Assembly (NCBI GenBank): GCA_025355995.1
Contig: JANXYQ010000105.1
Coordinates: 1 to 64,000 of the forward strand
Reading direction: 5' to 3'
DNA from: Spirochaetaceae bacterium
GTDB lineage: Bacteria > Spirochaetota > Spirochaetia > Treponematales > Rectinemataceae
Length of the DNA stretch: 64,000 bases
The notes beneath the pieces are model-generated. The model was not told the DNA's origin. It made no database searches and saw nothing but the letters and a program-made list of their open reading frames with translations. The translations under genes were made by a program, and so were the position numbers. Positions 22,560 to 31,893 of the stretch are shown one piece after another (position 1 is the first letter of the stretch; every line of letters begins with the position of its first letter).

Positions 22560-23000
22560 CCCGGGCTTTACGGCCTTCAAGCCTGCAGAACCAAGTACAT
22601 CGACGTGGCCCTCGTCGCCGCTCTGGAGCGGGGGATGGACCAGGTCGTCATAGTGGGAGCGGGCTTCGACACGAGGGCGTATAGAATTCCCGGGATAGAT
22701 AGGGCCAGGGTATTCGAGATCGATCTGCCCCGGCTTCAAGAGCGAAAGCTTAAGGCTATCGACGCCCTCTTCGAGGCGCGGCTTCCGATGGTCGAGTACC
22801 TATCCGTCGATTTCGAGACCCAGGACCTCGCCGATGCCCTGAGGTCCCATGGCATGGATTTTTCCAGGCCCGCATTCTTCGTTTGGGAGGGCGTGACTCA
22901 ATATCTCCGCGCCACGGCGGTAGGCTAGACCCTCGCGCGATCGTGGAGGCCGGCAGGGGCGGGGAGCTCGTCTGCACCTATATAATCGCGGGCGCCTCGG
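22560..23000 (+). pseudogene. broken SAM-dependent methyltransferase (leucine carboxyl methyltransferase-like, TIGR00027 type)
   Basis: The frame from about 22569 reads YGLQACRTKYIDVALVAALERG, then VVIVGAGFDTRAYRI, the AdoMet-binding core of this family, then VFEIDLPRLQERK and FFVWEGVTQYL. The N-terminal 60 or so residues expected before RTKYID are missing or not in frame. After TQYL the frame reaches a stop at 22926-22928, while a different frame restores family-like sequence (AIVEAGRGGELVCTYIIAG). I read this as a 5'-truncated, frameshifted remnant. Downstream sequence to 23141 contains no further recognisable domain. A short expressed fragment from the GTG at 22605 (107 residues) is possible but would lack the C-terminal half. 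Confidence 0.75.
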
Positions 23001-23141: not shown

Positions 23142-24407
23142 CTAGAGCCTGGGCTCCCAGGCCTCGAGCAGGTATGCCTCCGCCTCGGCGCTCCAGAGGC
23201 CGTTGCGAGCCTTGCAGATCGCGTCGAGCCGCGCGAAGCGCGGGTCCGAGGCGGCCTTCGCCCCGAACTCGTCGATCGCGGTCAACTCCAGGTCGATGCC
23301 GGTGTAGATGAGCTTCTTGCCCGCGGGGCGGTCGGGCAGGTGGAGGGTGGCCTCGGCCGCGCTGTCCAGGCCTCCGACGTGCGTCACCATGACGGCGGGA
23401 TTTATGCGGCCGTCGGCCGTCATCTCGAGGGACTCGACCATGTCGGCCGTGTTGCCGCCCGAGGTGCCCACGTTGTGCGTTGAGCCGTAGTGGACGTTGT
23501 AGAAATTCACGGGAGCCGAGAGGCTCGGGTCGGTGGGGCCGGCGAAGAAGTTGAGGCAGCCGTCGCGGCCCAGGATCAGGTCCCCCTGCGTTATCACGGC
23601 CGCGACGGGCGCGAACACGAAGACGTCGTCGAAGCCCGAGCCGCCCGTCATTGCGCGCAGCTCGGTTACGGGATCGGCCATCGCGCCGGTGTCGGCGAAG
23701 CGCAGGTCGATGCCGGCTTTCCGCGCCTCGGCCTCCGGGAATATGGCTCGGGCCCGCTCCAGCCGCGACGCGTCGACGTCCGTGACCACTATCATGGCGG
23801 GACGGAGCTCGGCGTGGAGGGCGTAGTCGATCGCTCCGAGGCCCATGGGGCCGGCGCCGGCGAGTATGGCCATCCTTCCGCCGCGGACTATGCCCATCTT
23901 GTGCTCGTAGCTGCCGGCGCTCGTGTGATAGCTCGCGTGCGAGGCGCCGATGATGCAGGACATGGGCTCGGCCAGCGAGGCCTCGAAGAAGGCCTCGCCG
24001 GAGTAGTCGAGGAGGCAGCCGAGCTCCATCACCTCGTGGGGCATGATGGCGTAGGTTGCCGCCCCGCCGCAGAAGCGATAGGAGTAGCCGGGGGAGTCCA
24101 TGCTGCCCTTGTAGTTGAGGGCGGGCTGGATGGCGAATTTCGCGCCCGGCGAGTAGCGCGCCTTCCACGTGGCCCCCGCCTCGACTATGACGCCGGCCAT
24201 CTCGTGGCCGACTATCACCGGGTTCTTCGCCACGTCATTGGGCACGCGCTTGTGCTCGCTGCCGAGGGAGGCCGCCTTGTAGGTCGACATGCATATGCTG
24301 TCCGATATCACGCGCACGAGGATCTCGTCTTCGCGTATCGGCGGGAGTTCGAACTCCTCCAGCCTCAAGTCCTTCTTGCCGTACAGCCTGACCGCCCTAG
24401 TCTTCAT
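23142..24407 (-). CDS. zinc-type medium-chain dehydrogenase, L-sorbose-1-phosphate reductase (SorE)-like
   Basis: The 421-residue protein starts KTRAVRLYGKKDLRLEEFELP and contains GHEMAGVIVEAGATW and nucleotide loop AGAGPMGLGAIDYAL, as in the SorE branch of the zinc alcohol dehydrogenase superfamily. SorE reversibly reduces the carbonyl next to the phosphorylated carbon of L-sorbose-1-phosphate to give glucitol-6-phosphate, using NAD(P)H. The catalytic zinc ligands appear as C in DSICMSTYKA and HE in GHEM. It is the last gene of the mannitol-type PTS operon, 15 bases after the kinase gene, and the operon lacks mtlD. A hexitol-phosphate dehydrogenase role at the carbon adjacent to the phosphate is inferred from context. 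Confidence 0.75.
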   Translation of the reverse strand: MKTRAVRLYGKKDLRLEEFELPPIREDEILVRVISDSICMSTYKAASLGSEHKRVPNDVAKNPVIVGHEMAGVIVEAGATWKARYSPGAKFAIQPALNYKGSMDSPGYSYRFCGGAATYAIMPHEVMELGCLLDYSGEAFFEASLAEPMSCIIGASHASYHTSAGSYEHKMGIVRGGRMAILAGAGPMGLGAIDYALHAELRPAMIVVTDVDASRLERARAIFPEAEARKAGIDLRFADTGAMADPVTELRAMTGGSGFDDVFVFAPVAAVITQGDLILGRDGCLNFFAGPTDPSLSAPVNFYNVHYGSTHNVGTSGGNTADMVESLEMTADGRINPAVMVTHVGGLDSAAEATLHLPDRPAGKKLIYTGIDLELTAIDEFGAKAASDPRFARLDAICKARNGLWSAEAEAYLLEAWEPRL

Positions 24408-24422
24408 GCTCGTGCCCGCCTT

Positions 24423-25352
24423 TCATAGGATCTCGTATTTGACTCTCGCCAGATAGGCCGAGACGGCCGCGGCGTCGAAGGACACCGATCCCCCCCCGGC
24501 GACGGCCGCCGTTCCCGCCGCGACGGCCGGCGCGACCATGCCTTCGAGGCCCTCGCCCCTCTCCATGCACAGGACCGCGGCCGCGAGCATGGAGTCGCCC
24601 GCCCCCACCGTGCTCCGCGCCTCGACATCTATGCCGCCGGCGAGGAGGGCGACAGTCTCGTCCACGAAGAGCGCGCCCTCCGAACCGAGGGAGAGGACCA
24701 CGGTCCGGGCCCCCCGGCGCAGTAGGTCCCGGGCGGCCGAGGCCATCGCCCGCGCGTCGGGGAGGACTCTCCCGACCAGCCGCTCGAGCTCCTGGAGGTT
24801 CGGCTTCAATAGGGTAGGGCCCGCCTCCGCGCCCCTCCGGAGCAACTCCCCGTCGGCGTCGAGGACGGTCCTGGCTCCCGCGGCCTTGGCCCGGGCGATC
24901 CATGCAGCGTAGATGCCGGGATCGCAGGCCTCCGGCGCGCTGCCAGAGAACACGAATATGTCGTCCCTCCCCGCGCCCGCGAAGAGCTCCGCCTCGAGGG
25001 CGGCCAGGGAGGCCGCGTCGACGCGGGGGCCGCTCTCGTTGATGTCGGTATGCGTGCCACCGACGGGGTCAACGATCTTGAGGTTCGTCCTCGTCTCGCC
25101 CGGGGCCCATGTCAGCGCGGCGTCGATGCCCCTCGCGTCCAGCCAGGCGCGGATGAACTCGCCCGCGTTGCCCGCGATCATCCCGTAGGCCCTGCTCTTC
25201 CCGCCGAGGGCCGCTATTGCCTTGGAGACGTTGATGCCCTTGCCGCCCGCGTCCACTCGCGCGGAGGCGACTCGATTGACCTTGTCCAGCGCGAAGCCCG
25301 CGATCACGACGGTCCGGTCGACCGCGGGGTTCAGTGTCACGGTCCGTATCAT
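24423..25352 (-). CDS. fruK: PfkB family kinase, 1-phosphofructokinase-like
   Basis: The 309-residue protein starts with IRTVTLNPAVDRTVVI and has KGINVSKAIAALGG, the signature of the 1-phosphofructokinase/tagatose-6-phosphate kinase branch. The catalytic segment is STVGAGDSMLAAAV near residue 245, with the base Asp. It should phosphorylate fructose-1-phosphate (or tagatose-6-phosphate) to the bisphosphate in the cytosol. The start codon lies 3 bases after the stop that the HPr frame would reach if its internal amber codon were read through. It sits between the HPr and SorE-like genes; with a mannitol PTS and no MtlD this points to fructose-1-phosphate as the pathway intermediate. Confidence 0.82.
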   Translation of the reverse strand: MIRTVTLNPAVDRTVVIAGFALDKVNRVASARVDAGGKGINVSKAIAALGGKSRAYGMIAGNAGEFIRAWLDARGIDAALTWAPGETRTNLKIVDPVGGTHTDINESGPRVDAASLAALEAELFAGAGRDDIFVFSGSAPEACDPGIYAAWIARAKAAGARTVLDADGELLRRGAEAGPTLLKPNLQELERLVGRVLPDARAMASAARDLLRRGARTVVLSLGSEGALFVDETVALLAGGIDVEARSTVGAGDSMLAAAVLCMERGEGLEGMVAPAVAAGTAAVAGGGSVSFDAAAVSAYLARVKYEIL

Positions 25353-25403
25353 GCTCTATTCTTTATAGACCAGCTCGAGGATCCCGCCGAGCTCGCGGAC
25401 CGC

Positions 25404-25625
25404 CTAGGCCTCGCCCTCGCCCGAGACCTCGACCGTCACCACGTCGCCGAACTTCACCCCGAGGGTCAGCATGCCCAGCACGCTTTTGCCGTTGATGACC
25501 CGGTCGCCCTTGAGGACCTTCACCTCGCAGGCCGGATATTTGTCGTTGGCCGTGTCCACGAGGAGGCGGGCGGGCCTGGTGTGAAATCCCGTGGGATTCT
25601 TGATGGTGAATTGATCGGAAACCAC
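25404..25625 (-). CDS. ptsH: HPr phosphocarrier, truncated by an in-frame amber codon
   Basis: The 73-residue product has active-site His15 in NPTGFHTRPA and the regulatory Ser in NGKSVLGMLTLG. HPr accepts phosphate from enzyme I and passes it to EIIA. The frame stops at TAG (complement of 25404-25406) after EVSGEGEA. Beyond it the same frame continues AVRELGGILELVYKE and stops at 25356-25358. That extension matches the final helix of HPr and would give 89 residues, the normal family length, ending 3 bases before the fruK ATG. So the gene is either a recent nonsense mutant, a sequencing error, or read through. The start is a GTG after AGAGAGG. Confidence 0.85.
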   Translation of the reverse strand: MVSDQFTIKNPTGFHTRPARLLVDTANDKYPACEVKVLKGDRVINGKSVLGMLTLGVKFGDVVTVEVSGEGEA

Positions 25626-25653
25626 GATGTACCTCTCTTCTGGCTTGGCGTGC

Positions 25654-27372
25654 TTAGGTCGAAGCGCTCGCGCGCGATAGGTCCCTGACTTCGTCGGCGG
25701 TCTCGAGATCCCTAGCGCGCTCGTAGAGCCGGCGGGCCTCGCCGCAGTCTATGCCGGCCACGATCTCCCTGGCCCTCGGTATGGCGGCGGCGCTCATGCT
25801 CAGCTCCCGGAGGCCCATGCCCACCAGTAGGGGCAGGGCGAGGGGGTCGGCGGCCATCTCGCCGCAGATGCCGACCCAGCGGCCCCGCTTGGCCGCGGCC
25901 TCGGCGACCGAGCCGAGCACGCGCAGGATAGCCGGATGCAGGGGGCGGTTGAGATAGGCAAGCTTCGGGTTCATGCGGTCGGCGGCCATCGAGTACTGCA
26001 CCAGGTCGTTGGTCCCCACGCTGAAGAAGTCCGCCTCGCGCGCGAGCTGGTCGGCCATGGTGGCCGCCGCGGGTATCTCGATCATCAGGCCAATCTCGAT
26101 GCCCGCGGGGACTTCGGTTCCGCCCGCCTCTAGGCCGCGCCTCTCCTCTTCGAGGATCCCCCTAGCCGCGCGGAATTCCTCGAGGGTGGCGATCATGGGG
26201 AACATGATCCGGAGCTGCCCGGCGGAGGCCGCCCGGAGCAGGGCCCGGAGCTGCGTGCGGAAAATATCCTCCCTGGCGAAGCAGAGCCGGATGGCCCGCA
26301 CGCCGAGGAAGGGATTCGACTCCTTGTCGAGCTCGAGGCACTCGACGCCCTTGTCCCCGCCTATGTCCAGGGTGCGGATGACGACCGGCCGGGGAGCCAT
26401 CCGCTCGAGCACCTCGCGGTAGGTCGCGTACTGCTCTTCCTCGCTGGGCAGGCTCGGGCGGTCCATGTAGAGGAATTCGGTGCGGAACAGGCCGATGCCC
26501 TCGGCCCCGTTCCTGAGCGCCGAGTCCAGGTCGGCGGCCCCGGCGATGTTCGCGGCGAGCTCGATGGCCGTCCCGTCGCGGGTCCTCGTCGCCAGGGAGG
26601 CGAAGCGCAGGGCCGCGGCCTTGGCCCGGGCCCGGTCCGCCTGGGCGCGGCGGTAGGACGCGAGCTGCTCGGCGTCGGGGTCCGCTATCACGAGTCCCTC
26701 GCCGCCGTCGACGATCAGGAGGCTCCCGCGCTCGAAGGCGCCCTCCAGGGGTCCGAGCCCCACGACTGCCGGTATCTCCATGGACCTGGCCAGGATCGAG
26801 GAGTGGGAGCTGGCGCTCCCGGAGGCAGTGACGAAGGCCTTGACGAGGCGTCTGTCGAACTGCGTCGTCTCCGAGGGGGTCAGGTCCTGCGCGGCCACGA
26901 CCGCCTCGCCCTCGAGCTCGAGCCGGCCCGACCCCGGGCCGCCGGCCAGGTGGGAGAGGATGCGCGAGCAGAGGTCGCGGATGTCGTCGATCCGGGCGGC
27001 GAAGAGCTGGCCCTCCACCTCGGAGAGCAGGTCGATGAAGACCTTCGCGGCCGCCTCGAGGGCGGCGCCGGCCGCCATCCCTTCCTCCCGCACGTTGCGC
27101 GATACCGCGGCATCGAGGTCCGGGTCCTTGAGTATCGACAGGTGGGCGTCGAAGATCTCCGCCTTCAGGTCGCCGAGCTCGGCCTTGGTCTTGTCCCGCA
27201 GGGCCTGGAGCTCGGCCTTGCTGGCCGCCACCGCTCGGGCGTAGCGCTCCCACTCGAGCTCGGGCGACGCCGCGGCGGCCTCGCCGGCCGAGGTCGCCCT
27301 GGGGGCGAGGAGGAAGGCGGGGGCGATCGCGATGCCGGGCGAGGCGGCGATGCCCTTCAGGATGCGCGGCAT
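25654..27372 (-). CDS. ptsI: PTS enzyme I
   Basis: The 572-residue protein is a full-length phosphoenolpyruvate-protein phosphotransferase. Its N-terminus ILKGIAASPGIAIAPAF is standard. The phospho-His lies in GSASSHSSILARSMEIPAVVG and the PEP-binding C-terminal barrel has GICGEMAADPLALPLL with the active-site Cys. It transfers phosphate from PEP to HPr in the cytosol. It lies within the operon between mtlF (5 bases upstream) and ptsH (29 bases downstream), so this operon carries its own general PTS proteins. Confidence 0.96.
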   Translation of the reverse strand: MPRILKGIAASPGIAIAPAFLLAPRATSAGEAAAASPELEWERYARAVAASKAELQALRDKTKAELGDLKAEIFDAHLSILKDPDLDAAVSRNVREEGMAAGAALEAAAKVFIDLLSEVEGQLFAARIDDIRDLCSRILSHLAGGPGSGRLELEGEAVVAAQDLTPSETTQFDRRLVKAFVTASGSASSHSSILARSMEIPAVVGLGPLEGAFERGSLLIVDGGEGLVIADPDAEQLASYRRAQADRARAKAAALRFASLATRTRDGTAIELAANIAGAADLDSALRNGAEGIGLFRTEFLYMDRPSLPSEEEQYATYREVLERMAPRPVVIRTLDIGGDKGVECLELDKESNPFLGVRAIRLCFAREDIFRTQLRALLRAASAGQLRIMFPMIATLEEFRAARGILEEERRGLEAGGTEVPAGIEIGLMIEIPAAATMADQLAREADFFSVGTNDLVQYSMAADRMNPKLAYLNRPLHPAILRVLGSVAEAAAKRGRWVGICGEMAADPLALPLLVGMGLRELSMSAAAIPRAREIVAGIDCGEARRLYERARDLETADEVRDLSRASAST

Positions 27373-27376
27373 GGCC

Positions 27377-27829
27377 TCACCTGCCCTCGGCCGGCGCGAT
27401 CACCTCGAGCAGGTCGCGGGGGGTGGCGGCCTCGAGGAGCCCCGCGAGCCTCCCGTCGTCGGCGCAGATCTCGGCTATCTCGGTGAGGATGTCCATGTGC
27501 TCCTCGCCGCGCGCGGCGAGCCCCACCAATATGCGCGCGACGTTTCCGCCGCCGAAATCGACGCCGGCGGGAACCTGGACCACTGCGATGCCGGTACTCC
27601 TTACGAAGCGGCCCGAGGCCTTGGTGCCGTGGGGCACGGCCACTCCGTTGCCTACGTACACCGTCGAGAGCCTGTCGCGTTCCACCATCAGGTCGATATA
27701 TTCCTCTTCGATATGGCCGGCGTCGGCGAGCAGCCGTCCGCAGGCCCTGATGGCCTCTTCCTTGCCCGAGAACGCGGCGTTCACCCGGATGGTCCGCTCG
27801 GATAGCATCGATGAATCCATGACGGTCAT
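27377..27829 (-). CDS. mtlF: PTS EIIA component, mannitol/fructose type
   Basis: The 150-residue protein carries the EIIA active-site segment YVGNGVAVPHGTKAS with phospho-His near residue 66 and the usual alpha/beta fold of the mannitol-fructose family. It relays phosphate from HPr to the EIIB domain of MtlA. The ATG at 27829 is preceded by AAGGAG and overlaps the mtlR stop as ATGA, so the two are coupled. ptsI starts 5 bases after its stop. Confidence 0.93.
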   Translation of the reverse strand: MTVMDSSMLSERTIRVNAAFSGKEEAIRACGRLLADAGHIEEEYIDLMVERDRLSTVYVGNGVAVPHGTKASGRFVRSTGIAVVQVPAGVDFGGGNVARILVGLAARGEEHMDILTEIAEICADDGRLAGLLEAATPRDLLEVIAPAEGR

Positions 27830-29967
27830 GCTCCTTGTTGGGATAGGGAACGCGCGTAGCGGTCCAGGTGTCGGGAGTAGTGCGTGCGGATCTCAGACTC
27901 GTCCCCCGTCTCCAGGACCTCCACGGTCCGGGGGTCGAGGAAGGAGCTGGAGATCTCGTTCAGTATATCCTGGTCGGGGCTGTCGAGCCCCGGGGGCGCG
28001 AGCATCAGCACGAGCATCGTCGGCTGGGCCGCCCAGGCCGCGCCCTCCGCGCTCGGCGTCCCGGACAGCACGTGGAGGCTCAGGGAGGGGCGGGCCAGGC
28101 CGGAGGTCCGCGCGTGCAGGAAGAGGATGGCGCTGCCCGGCAGGACCATGCCGCGGTCCCTCGAGCGGAGCTCCAGGTCGCGGAGGGCCGCCGCAGGGTC
28201 CGCGAGGAGGCCCGCGCCGGCGCAGCGCTCGATCGACTCCGCGAGTAAGTCCTCCCACCAGGCCTGCCCCGGCCGCGCCGAGCCCGCCTCGGCCCCCTGG
28301 GGCGCGGGGCCGAAGACGCGAAAGCCCTCGAGTATCCCGATGGCGGCCGAGAGGTGCCCGCTCATCTGCTTCAGGTCCTGAAGGCTCGCCCGGGCCCCGT
28401 TGCGGTCCGCGGACTCGTCGGCCGCGGAGACGTCCGCCGCCCTGATGAGGTGGCGTCGGCGATCCATGTAGCCGCGCAAGGCGCGTATGCCGTCCTCGCT
28501 CAGGAGGGGGCTCACCAATATATAGTCCGATTCCGGCAGGGGGAGGCGGATGGTGGAGACCAGGATGTCCCAGGTGTCGCGGGACCGGTCGTCGATGTCG
28601 AACCAGGAGAGGCTGGCGACGATGTCGATCTCGGGGAGTTCTGCCCGGATGCGGCTCGCGAGCATATGCGCGCTGCCGATCCCCGCGGAGCAGACCACCA
28701 GGGCCCGGAAGCGCTGTCCCGTCTTGGCCCGCCGCTCGAGCGAGGAGCCGAAGTGGAGGACGAGATAGCCCACCTCGTCGTCGGGCACCCTCAGCTCGGG
28801 GAAGACGCGGTCCGAGGCCTTCCTGATGGCCGCGAACAGCCCGACGTACTCGGTCCGAATCTGCTGCAGGAGGGGATTGCGGATCGGCAGCCGGTTCCTG
28901 ATCCGGTAGAGGGCCGGGGCCCAGTGGGACGCGAGGCCGTCTCGCAGCACCCGGTCCTCGACGAAGGAGGCGTCGTAGAGCTCCTCGCAGGCTTGGATGA
29001 GGGCCTTCAGCCCCGCGAGGGCCGCCATGTCGATCTCGCCCAGGCCCGGGCCTCCCGAGCGCTCGGGCTTGGCGCCGCGCAGATAGCTTTCGACGGACAG
29101 GGTCTCCGCTCGTTCGCCCTCGAGGCCCGAGGCGGACGCCATCCCCTCGGCTATGAGGGTGGCCGCGCGAGATTCCTTCGTCGAGGCCGCCTCTTCGAGG
29201 GGGGTGCCGGCTATCTCGCCCAGCGGGAAGCCGCGCCTGCGCCTTTCGGCGCCCACTGCCAGGTGGGTGACCAGGCCCAGGTAATCGCGCGGCGCGAGGG
29301 CCAGGGCGCAGTCCCTGGGAAGCCCCGAGAGGACAGCCTCGGCCGCGCGGAAGCCCTGGGCGGGCACCATGCGCAGGAGGATGTCCGCTACCGGGTCCAG
29401 GGTCTCGTCGGGCGTCGTCTCGTCGTTGATCAGGCCGAGGAGGCCCGCCTCGCCGAACTGCTCCATCACCAGGGAGGAGATGGCCTGGCGCCTGCCCCAC
29501 TCGGGGCCCTCGAGCGTTACGCCTATGCCTCGGCGAAGGCTCAAGGCCAGGCCGTTTCCCTCGAGCCAGGAGCGCATCTCCTCGAGGTCTCGGCGCACGG
29601 CGACGATGCCGGAGCCGAGGTCGGCCTCGAGGGAGAGGAGCTTCACGACGTCCCCGGCCTCGAGGAGGAGGGCTACGAGCAGGCGCTTGCGCTCCTCCGG
29701 AGAGCGTTCGCGCGCCCGGGCCTCGGCGAGATCGCCCAGGCAGGCCTCGATCCGCTCGGGGCTTCCGAGCACCCGAAGGCCCTGCCCTGATTTGGCCGAC
29801 AGCACGAGGCCATAGTTCTGGGAGAGGGCGGGGGCGATGCGGGTCAATTCCCGGTGGATAGTCTTGGCGCTGACGCCCAGGCGCGCGGCGATCTGGCCGA
29901 GCGTGAGCTCGCCGTAGCCGCGCAGCAGGCAATCGAGCGCCACTATCTGCCTCGTTGAGAATTCCAT
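27826..29967 (-). CDS. mtlR: PRD-containing transcriptional activator (MtlR/BglG family)
   Basis: The 713-residue regulator has an N-terminal helix-turn-helix (LTLGQIAARLGVSAKTIHREL), a Mga-like helical region, two PTS regulation domains (PRD2 with DEVGYLVLHFGSSLERR), an EIIB-like domain with the phospho-Cys in VVCSAGIGSAHML, and a C-terminal EIIA-like domain (residues about 570-700). Such regulators are switched by phosphorylation from HPr and from the cognate EIIB, tying operon expression to mannitol transport. It lies second in the operon after mtlA, separated by a strong stem-loop (29994-30017). Confidence 0.92.
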   Translation of the reverse strand: MEFSTRQIVALDCLLRGYGELTLGQIAARLGVSAKTIHRELTRIAPALSQNYGLVLSAKSGQGLRVLGSPERIEACLGDLAEARARERSPEERKRLLVALLLEAGDVVKLLSLEADLGSGIVAVRRDLEEMRSWLEGNGLALSLRRGIGVTLEGPEWGRRQAISSLVMEQFGEAGLLGLINDETTPDETLDPVADILLRMVPAQGFRAAEAVLSGLPRDCALALAPRDYLGLVTHLAVGAERRRRGFPLGEIAGTPLEEAASTKESRAATLIAEGMASASGLEGERAETLSVESYLRGAKPERSGGPGLGEIDMAALAGLKALIQACEELYDASFVEDRVLRDGLASHWAPALYRIRNRLPIRNPLLQQIRTEYVGLFAAIRKASDRVFPELRVPDDEVGYLVLHFGSSLERRAKTGQRFRALVVCSAGIGSAHMLASRIRAELPEIDIVASLSWFDIDDRSRDTWDILVSTIRLPLPESDYILVSPLLSEDGIRALRGYMDRRRHLIRAADVSAADESADRNGARASLQDLKQMSGHLSAAIGILEGFRVFGPAPQGAEAGSARPGQAWWEDLLAESIERCAGAGLLADPAAALRDLELRSRDRGMVLPGSAILFLHARTSGLARPSLSLHVLSGTPSAEGAAWAAQPTMLVLMLAPPGLDSPDQDILNEISSSFLDPRTVEVLETGDESEIRTHYSRHLDRYARSLSQQGA

Positions 29968-29993
29968 CGCCTCGCACCCCTGGTAGAAAGACT

Positions 29994-30017
29994 CTCCCCC
30001 GGGTCGCCCCGGGGGAG
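29994..30017 (-). terminator. intercistronic stem-loop between mtlA and mtlR
   Basis: CTCCCCCGGG and CCCGGGGGAG pair over 10 bp around a 4-base loop. On the minus strand it is followed by only a broken T tract (AGAGTCTTTCT). It may be a partial terminator that lowers downstream expression, or an mRNA end-stabiliser for mtlA. Confidence 0.5.
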
Positions 30018-30037
30018 ATATCTCGGGAAAGAAGTCT

Positions 30038-31474
30038 TTAGCCCTTGAGCTTCGCCACTAGTTTGTCGTATTCGGGGCTCTTGAGGAAGTCATCGATCGA
30101 GATGTGGTGGGCGTTCGGCGCGGCGCGCCGGGCCCGGTCGGTCAGCGACTTGTGGGAGACGACGATGTCGGCGTCGGCCGGAATCTCGTTGATCGCCGTG
30201 TTGGTGACGGTGATCTGGAGCCCGGCTTCCTTCACCTTCTTGCGCAGGATGGAGGCGCCCATGGCGCTGGAGCCCATGCCCGCGTCGCAGGAGAAGATGA
30301 TCTTTTTGACCGAGGAGGGGTCGAGGGTCGCGGTGGAGGTCGCGAGGTTCGCCGTCGCCGCGTTGAGCTTCGAGCCCTTGGCCGCCGCGGTCTTCGCGAC
30401 CGCTTCGCTGAGGCCGTCGGCGCTCTCGTTCTGCTTGCCGAGTTTGAGGAGGAGGTAGGCTACCACGAAGGACGCGGCCGTCGCGGCGGTGACGCCCGCT
30501 AGCATCGGGAGGAGTCCGCCCTTCGGGGTCATCGCGAAGTAGGCGAAGATCGATCCGGGGGAGGGGGTCGCCACCAGGCCTGCGCCGGTGATCACGAAGG
30601 TGAAGGTGCCGACTACGCCGCCCGCCATCGTGGCGAGGATGAGCTTCGGGTTCATGAGGATGTAGGGGAAGTATATCTCGTGGATGCCGCCGAAGAAGTG
30701 GATGATGATGGCGGAGGGAGCGGACTCCTTGGCCAGGCCCTTTCCGGCGACCCAGTAGGCGAGGAGGAGCCCGAGTCCGGGACCGGGGTTGGACTCGAGC
30801 ATGAAGATGATGGACTTGCCGGCGCTGGCGGACTGCTGGATGCCGATGGGCCCGAGGACGCCGTGGTTGATCGCGTTGTTCAGGAATAAGACCTTGCCCG
30901 GCTCGATGAAGATGTTGGCCAGGGGGAGGATGTTCCAGCTGACGATGGCCTTGACGCCCCCCGCGAGGAAGTTGCTGACCGCGGCCATGACGGGGCCGAT
31001 GACGAGGTAGGCGAGGATGGCGAGGAGGCCGCCGAGGATGCCCAGGGAGAAGTTGTTGACCAGCATCTCGAAACCGGAGCGGATCCGGCCCTCGACGAGC
31101 TCGTCGAACTTCTTCATGCACCAGCCCGCAGCGGGGCCGACGATCATGGCGCCGAGGAACATCGGGATGCTGGCGCCGACGATTACGCCGAGCGTCGTGA
31201 GGGCGCCGATGACGCCGCCGCGAACCCCGTGGACCGCCTTGCCGCCCGTGTAGCCGATGAGGAGGGGAAGGAGATAGGTGATCATGGGTCCGACGAGCTT
31301 GGCGAGCGTCTCGTTGGGAATCCATCCCGTCGGGATGAAGAAGGCGGTGATCAATCCCCAGGCGATGAACGCGCCGATATTGGGGAGGACCATCCCGCTC
31401 ACGAAACTGCCAAACCGCTGCAAGCCGACTCTGGCGCCGACTGCGCCCTTGGGCGCGAGAAAAGCATCACTCAT
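30038..31474 (-). CDS. mtlA: PTS mannitol transporter subunit EIICB
   Basis: The 478-residue protein has a membrane EIIC domain (residues about 20-345) with the mannitol-family signatures GRFGSFVSGMVLPNIGAFI-like start, GGIHEIYFPYILMNP and LESNPGPGLGLLLAYW. An EIIB domain follows at about 385-478 with phospho-Cys in IIFSCDAGMGSSAMG. The EIIA domain found in enterobacterial MtlA is absent and is supplied by mtlF. It takes up and phosphorylates mannitol or a related hexitol to the 1-phosphate. The start at 31474 is preceded by GGAGG; an upstream ATG would extend into the promoter. It is the first gene of the operon. Confidence 0.95.
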   Translation of the reverse strand: MSDAFLAPKGAVGARVGLQRFGSFVSGMVLPNIGAFIAWGLITAFFIPTGWIPNETLAKLVGPMITYLLPLLIGYTGGKAVHGVRGGVIGALTTLGVIVGASIPMFLGAMIVGPAAGWCMKKFDELVEGRIRSGFEMLVNNFSLGILGGLLAILAYLVIGPVMAAVSNFLAGGVKAIVSWNILPLANIFIEPGKVLFLNNAINHGVLGPIGIQQSASAGKSIIFMLESNPGPGLGLLLAYWVAGKGLAKESAPSAIIIHFFGGIHEIYFPYILMNPKLILATMAGGVVGTFTFVITGAGLVATPSPGSIFAYFAMTPKGGLLPMLAGVTAATAASFVVAYLLLKLGKQNESADGLSEAVAKTAAAKGSKLNAATANLATSTATLDPSSVKKIIFSCDAGMGSSAMGASILRKKVKEAGLQITVTNTAINEIPADADIVVSHKSLTDRARRAAPNAHHISIDDFLKSPEYDKLVAKLKG

Positions 31475-31518
31475 GCAAGACCTCCGTTTCAGTGTACCCT
31501 GCGAAAAATCGCTTGCGC

Positions 31519-31548
31519 ATGATAAGGGCCGTTTCCCGATTCGGTAAA
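31519..31548 (-). promoter_or_regulatory. mtlA: candidate mtlA promoter
   Basis: On the minus strand TTTACC (31543-31548) and TATCAT (31519-31524) are 18 bases apart, ending 45 bases before the mtlA ATG. The -35 box lies inside the palindrome at 31531-31549. Confidence 0.45.
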
Positions 31549-31549
31549 C
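31531..31549. promoter_or_regulatory. 19-bp palindromic operator over the mtlA promoter
   Basis: The sequence GTTTCCCGA-T-TCGGTAAAC is an inverted repeat with one mismatched pair. Symmetric sites of this size are typical LacI-family operators, and the divergent gene is a LacI-type repressor. It covers the -35 box, so binding would block mtlA transcription. Confidence 0.55.
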
Positions 31550-31893
31550 GAAATGAAGATGCGCCTGAGTCGCGAAGGTTGCGGACAAAAATAATTTGTA
31601 ATCGCCGACCGCCTCGCGCGCCTTTCCGCCCGACGCGCCTAATCGGGAGCGATATGCGAAACAGCAAAGAGAATAAAATAATTACAAAACGGCTCGGGGA
31701 AACCGATTTTGTCATGGGTGGACCCTCGCGCGCTCGTCCCCGCTAGGTCAAGGGAAACGCTATCTCTTTCTGCACAATACTAATTTTAATTATATTTAAC
31801 ATAATGGAATATTATGATTCAATAAATATTTCGGCCCTGCCTCATCGAAAAAGTGTTCGTTAAAAAACGGTTTCGTGATACTATTAAGTTCGA

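Follow-up and report, generated by a model that had tools for sequence, protein, structure and literature searches.

The DNA analyzed here (the window, i.e., the entire stretch of 64,000 nucleotides) carries on its reverse strand, at 23142-31588, a self-contained operon for a mannitol-type PTS, which brings along its own ptsI and HPr as well as a 1-phosphofructokinase and a zinc-type dehydrogenase. The genes are transcribed in the order EIICB, PRD regulator, EIIA, ptsI, HPr, fruK and dehydrogenase, and the features are listed below in the same direction.

30038-31588, reverse strand: mannitol-type EIICB, by ORF and profile match (the ORF is listed from a TTG; 30038-31405 is the part that was scanned)
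27826-29967, reverse strand: PRD-domain regulator, by ORF and profile match
27377-27829, reverse strand: PTS EIIA of the fructose/mannitol class, intact open frame, by ORF and profile match
25654-27372, reverse strand: operon-borne ptsI (enzyme I), intact open frame, by ORF and profile match
25404-25625, reverse strand: truncated HPr frame with a GTG start at 25625, 73 amino acids and a TAG
25404-25406, reverse strand: the in-frame amber codon, where all 9 relatives have a sense codon
25356-25403, reverse strand: tail of 15 codons, AVRELGGILELVYKE, resembling the C-terminal end of HPr and followed by a second TAG at 25356-25358, by translation and alignment
24423-25352, reverse strand: fruK-like 1-phosphofructokinase, intact open frame starting 51 nt past the amber codon, by ORF and profile match
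23142-24407, reverse strand: zinc-type dehydrogenase, the last gene of the conserved order, by profile match and gene order

The locus is corrected here to the mannitol type, as opposed to a plain fructose operon, since EIICB scored 694 bits against the PTS mannitol IICBA model. The full gene order was identical in all four relatives with enough flanking contig (L097-L100), and the ptsI-HPr-fruK order was kept in all nine relatives that carry this operon-type HPr. Among the 30 genomes of the family that were searched, ptsI adjoined an HPr of the operon type, as judged by contig and position, only in the genome of the window and in its nearest relative, G015. When the nine sequences were read by eye, the fruK start was found either to overlap the HPr stop or to fall within a few bases of it in every one of them, and thus HPr and fruK are probably translationally coupled. 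In the window, the second TAG of the HPr frame lies 3 bases ahead of the fruK ATG at 25352 and shares the reading frame of fruK. Folding predicts a small hairpin at this second stop, right before the fruK ATG (25354-25370, reverse strand), which could mask the fruK start unless ribosomes get there; the fold as a whole was no better than those of shuffled sequences.

Rereading of the sequence bore out the earlier account of the HPr frame itself, namely that it meets a TAG at 25404-25406 directly after the residues SGEGEA, continues in the same frame, and ends at a second stop just short of fruK. Read across the TAG, the frame matched PTS-HPr (PF00381) of Pfam with 80.2 bits over profile positions 2-79 of 81, whereas the 73-residue part alone matched with 71.1 bits over positions 2-68; the family cut-off of 23 bits was exceeded with and without the tail. 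The standard translation therefore lacks the C-terminal end of the domain, stopping at position 68 of 81, and the missing portion is the last helix of HPr. In a phmmer comparison with solved HPr structures, the read-through frame aligned as far as residue 86. The phosphorylatable His-15-type and Ser-46-type sites are both present in the translation, as GFHTRPA and NGKSVLG, respectively. The tail also aligned without gaps to the nine intact relatives, and considering that this alignment runs to the normal length, a chance origin of the 15 codons can be discounted; the claim that the tail matches the HPr end and restores a normal length of 89 residues was thus upheld. Overall, the window protein agrees with the HPr phosphocarrier (PF00381 / TIGR01003) in its near-whole profile match, its phosphorylation-site motifs and, if read to the second stop, its normal length, but differs from it in that an in-frame TAG cuts this operon-borne paralogue off at residue 73.

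The amber codon was compared with the corresponding position in other genomes. Nine of them (G015, G068, G038, G046, G054, G037, G114, G128 and G132) encode an intact HPr of this operon type, with 43-69% identity to the window protein, and all nine have a sense codon where the window has TAG: glutamate in seven, lysine in one and glycine in one. The nearest relative, G015 (69% identity), has glutamate at this site, with a codon that differs from TAG by a single base, and its adjoining codons are identical to those of the window. The stop was likewise absent from every wider collection. A search of 78 genomes, that of the window included, gave 103 HPr matches by hand count of the match column, and none of the other 102 had an internal stop. 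Among 390 genomes of the order, ten had a strong match (E <= 1e-16), i.e., that of the window and nine others, and the nine were free of internal stops; among 392 genomes of the phylum, five had a strong match, every one known from the earlier searches, and the four other than the window's were equally uninterrupted. A plasmid DNA search returned distant ptsI and fruK matches only, and a protein scan of genome contigs for HPr returned only four distant HPrs. A comparison for relaxed constraint in the tail gave no clear signal. Between the window protein and its nearest relative, 7 of 15 tail residues and 15 of 64 body residues differ (Fisher p 0.107); one of the nine pairs that include the window protein gave p 0.017, and the intact G015 protein itself gave p 0.038 against each of four others, showing the same tendency.

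The genome encodes related functions elsewhere. The search for another ptsH, recommended in the preliminary description, retrieved an intact copy on contig C59, which scored 108.1 bits to PTS-HPr and lies directly after an HPr kinase/phosphorylase gene in which both Hpr_kinase_N and Hpr_kinase_C were matched. A second ptsI was found on contig C96. It is to be noted that the source genome, probably a metagenome bin, is a draft of 138 contigs that is 95% complete.

Taken together, the stop in this spare HPr copy most likely stems from a recent nonsense mutation or from an error in the assembly, both being favored over readthrough. Of the three options originally offered, nonsense change and base error were thus retained, while readthrough was set aside because of the sense codons in relatives, the common use of TAG as a stop, the lack of a suppressor tRNA among the 40 tRNA genes found and of a PylS match, and the absence of the stop from other HPr genes. 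We lean toward a real and recent single-base nonsense allele of an operon-borne HPr whose function is redundant, and hold this to be somewhat better than an even bet. It is supported by the single-base difference from the glutamate codon of G015 amid identical adjoining codons, and by the sense codon in all nine relatives; a tail that is in frame, of full length and without further damage points to a recent event, and the intact second HPr beside the HPr kinase gene, along with the second ptsI, indicates that the loss could be tolerated. Some findings count against it. Every other gene of the operon has an intact frame, which a decaying operon need not retain for long; the tail keeps the conserved residues of the family, as a functional tail also would; and the draft state of the genome, in 138 contigs, leaves an error plausible. 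Pseudogenes with a single recent nonsense codon are a general kind in bacteria, and the window HPr, as assembled, resembles them in having one stop, no other damage, and a related function encoded elsewhere.

The closest competitor is an error in the consensus or base calling of the draft assembly, such that the organism itself would carry an uninterrupted HPr gene here. We give it a substantial chance, though one short of even, and the split between error and nonsense allele is a matter of judgement. The proximity to G015, only one base away with identical neighboring codons, speaks for an error just as it does for a recent mutation, and so do the intact remainder of HPr and of the operon and the fragmented state of the draft. 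The earlier expectation that a sense codon in relatives would make the TAG an error therefore held in its observation, as the sense codon was seen in all nine, but its conclusion does not follow from this alone, since a recent real mutation looks identical. Conversely, errors that create a nonsense codon should be rare per genome, and a 464-kb sample (the 64-kb window plus 400 kb) showed no general surplus of interrupted genes, although such a test would miss many errors. In this sample, 309 genes had at least 12 open codons past the stop, and the tail started in a coding-like manner in 16 of them; 13 of the 16 overlapped a neighboring predicted gene and three were free. Of these three, only the tail of HPr was short, with 15 codons, while the remaining free tails, of 89 and 96 codons, had low or negative total coding scores (12.5 and -14.4 bits); the long free tail that follows a TAG on contig C46 did not, on reading by eye, resemble an interrupted gene.

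A second interrupted gene was noticed in the window itself. At 22590-22928, forward strand, lies a fragment of an LCM-type SAM methyltransferase that covers positions 65-174 of 259 of TIGR00027 (126.3 bits), with start and end missing and with the region past its TAG appearing by eye to be frame-shifted. It had no match in any of the 29 other genomes searched, and for this reason looks like an acquired, decayed gene. Since it lies about 2.5 kb from HPr, gene decay does happen on this contig, in keeping with a real nonsense allele.

Functional readthrough of the TAG, programmed or tolerated, in which some ribosomes would read UAG as Gln or Tyr to produce full-length HPr, is unlikely, and we assign it only a slim chance. 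The complete, in-frame tail would suit it, and so would the context of the site, which has no T just upstream and a G at +4. An E. coli reporter study (PMC11126739) places such contexts among the leakier ones, readthrough being raised by a G and the lack of a T just before the stop and by a G just after it, and gives the order of readthrough as TGA > TAG > TAA. However, this context is commonplace, as a G at +4 follows the TAG in 65 of the 159 other TAG-ended genes, and the RNA fold around the codon is unremarkable (z -0.90); none of these features lends positive support to a function. The stop is also unconserved, being found in none of the relatives or of the other HPr matches above. Furthermore, TAG is an ordinary stop in this genome: of the 403 genes predicted by codon usage in the 464-kb sample, 172 end in TGA, 160 in TAG and 71 in TAA, and the HPr frame itself has TAG as its own end. 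The amber-suppressor tRNA suggested earlier was not found either, as a CUA anticodon was present in none of 40 tRNA genes, a set that is incomplete in that genes for Ile and Cys tRNAs are missing from it. All 40 matches fell within the stretches read with ARAGORN (30 loci and 7 stretches). Two pattern matches to a suppressor lay in the 5' part of tRNA-Ser(tga) and tRNA-Trp(cca), away from the anticodon, and the candidate was rejected for the tRNAs found. A general suppressor would, moreover, also run on into fruK, given that the second stop is likewise a TAG in frame with it. The tetranucleotide CTAG occurs 425 times in the 464 kb, against 843 expected from trinucleotides, i.e., about half; such depletion fits a recent or erroneous base at the TAG, but proves nothing.

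A variant of this idea, that the amber is real and leaky, so that readthrough yields a little full-length HPr while some ribosomes reach the fruK start, thereby tuning the operon, is more doubtful still; if it were so, double readthrough would even give an HPr-FruK fusion, as no shift of frame separates the second TAG from fruK. Reassignment of the amber codon, to pyrrolysine or otherwise, has only the open frame across the TAG in its favor and was rejected as exceedingly improbable, since PylS had no match in the 95% complete genome, RF1 is present at 496.6 bits (cut-off 423.25), TAG is a frequent stop, and the relatives have ordinary residues at the site.

In the favored scenario of a recent nonsense allele, a single base change would have converted a probable glutamate codon to TAG in the HPr of a self-contained mannitol-type PTS. 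Translation would then halt after 73 of 89 residues, short of the C-terminal helix, and the product would probably be unstable or inactive. With either enzyme I as donor, the housekeeping HPr whose gene adjoins that of the HPr kinase can probably relay phosphate to the operon EIIA, and the loss of the operon HPr may be tolerated for this reason. FruK may also be made in smaller amounts, with fewer ribosomes running up to its start.

If it is no more than a single nonsense codon in a redundant HPr, the change is of little import beyond annotation, where the gene should be flagged as interrupted. The TAG would matter more only if it were both real and read through, which the evidence does not favor. 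The surrounding operon, a mannitol-type PTS supplied with an enzyme I and an HPr of its own, is a conserved unit that deserves a note in annotation.
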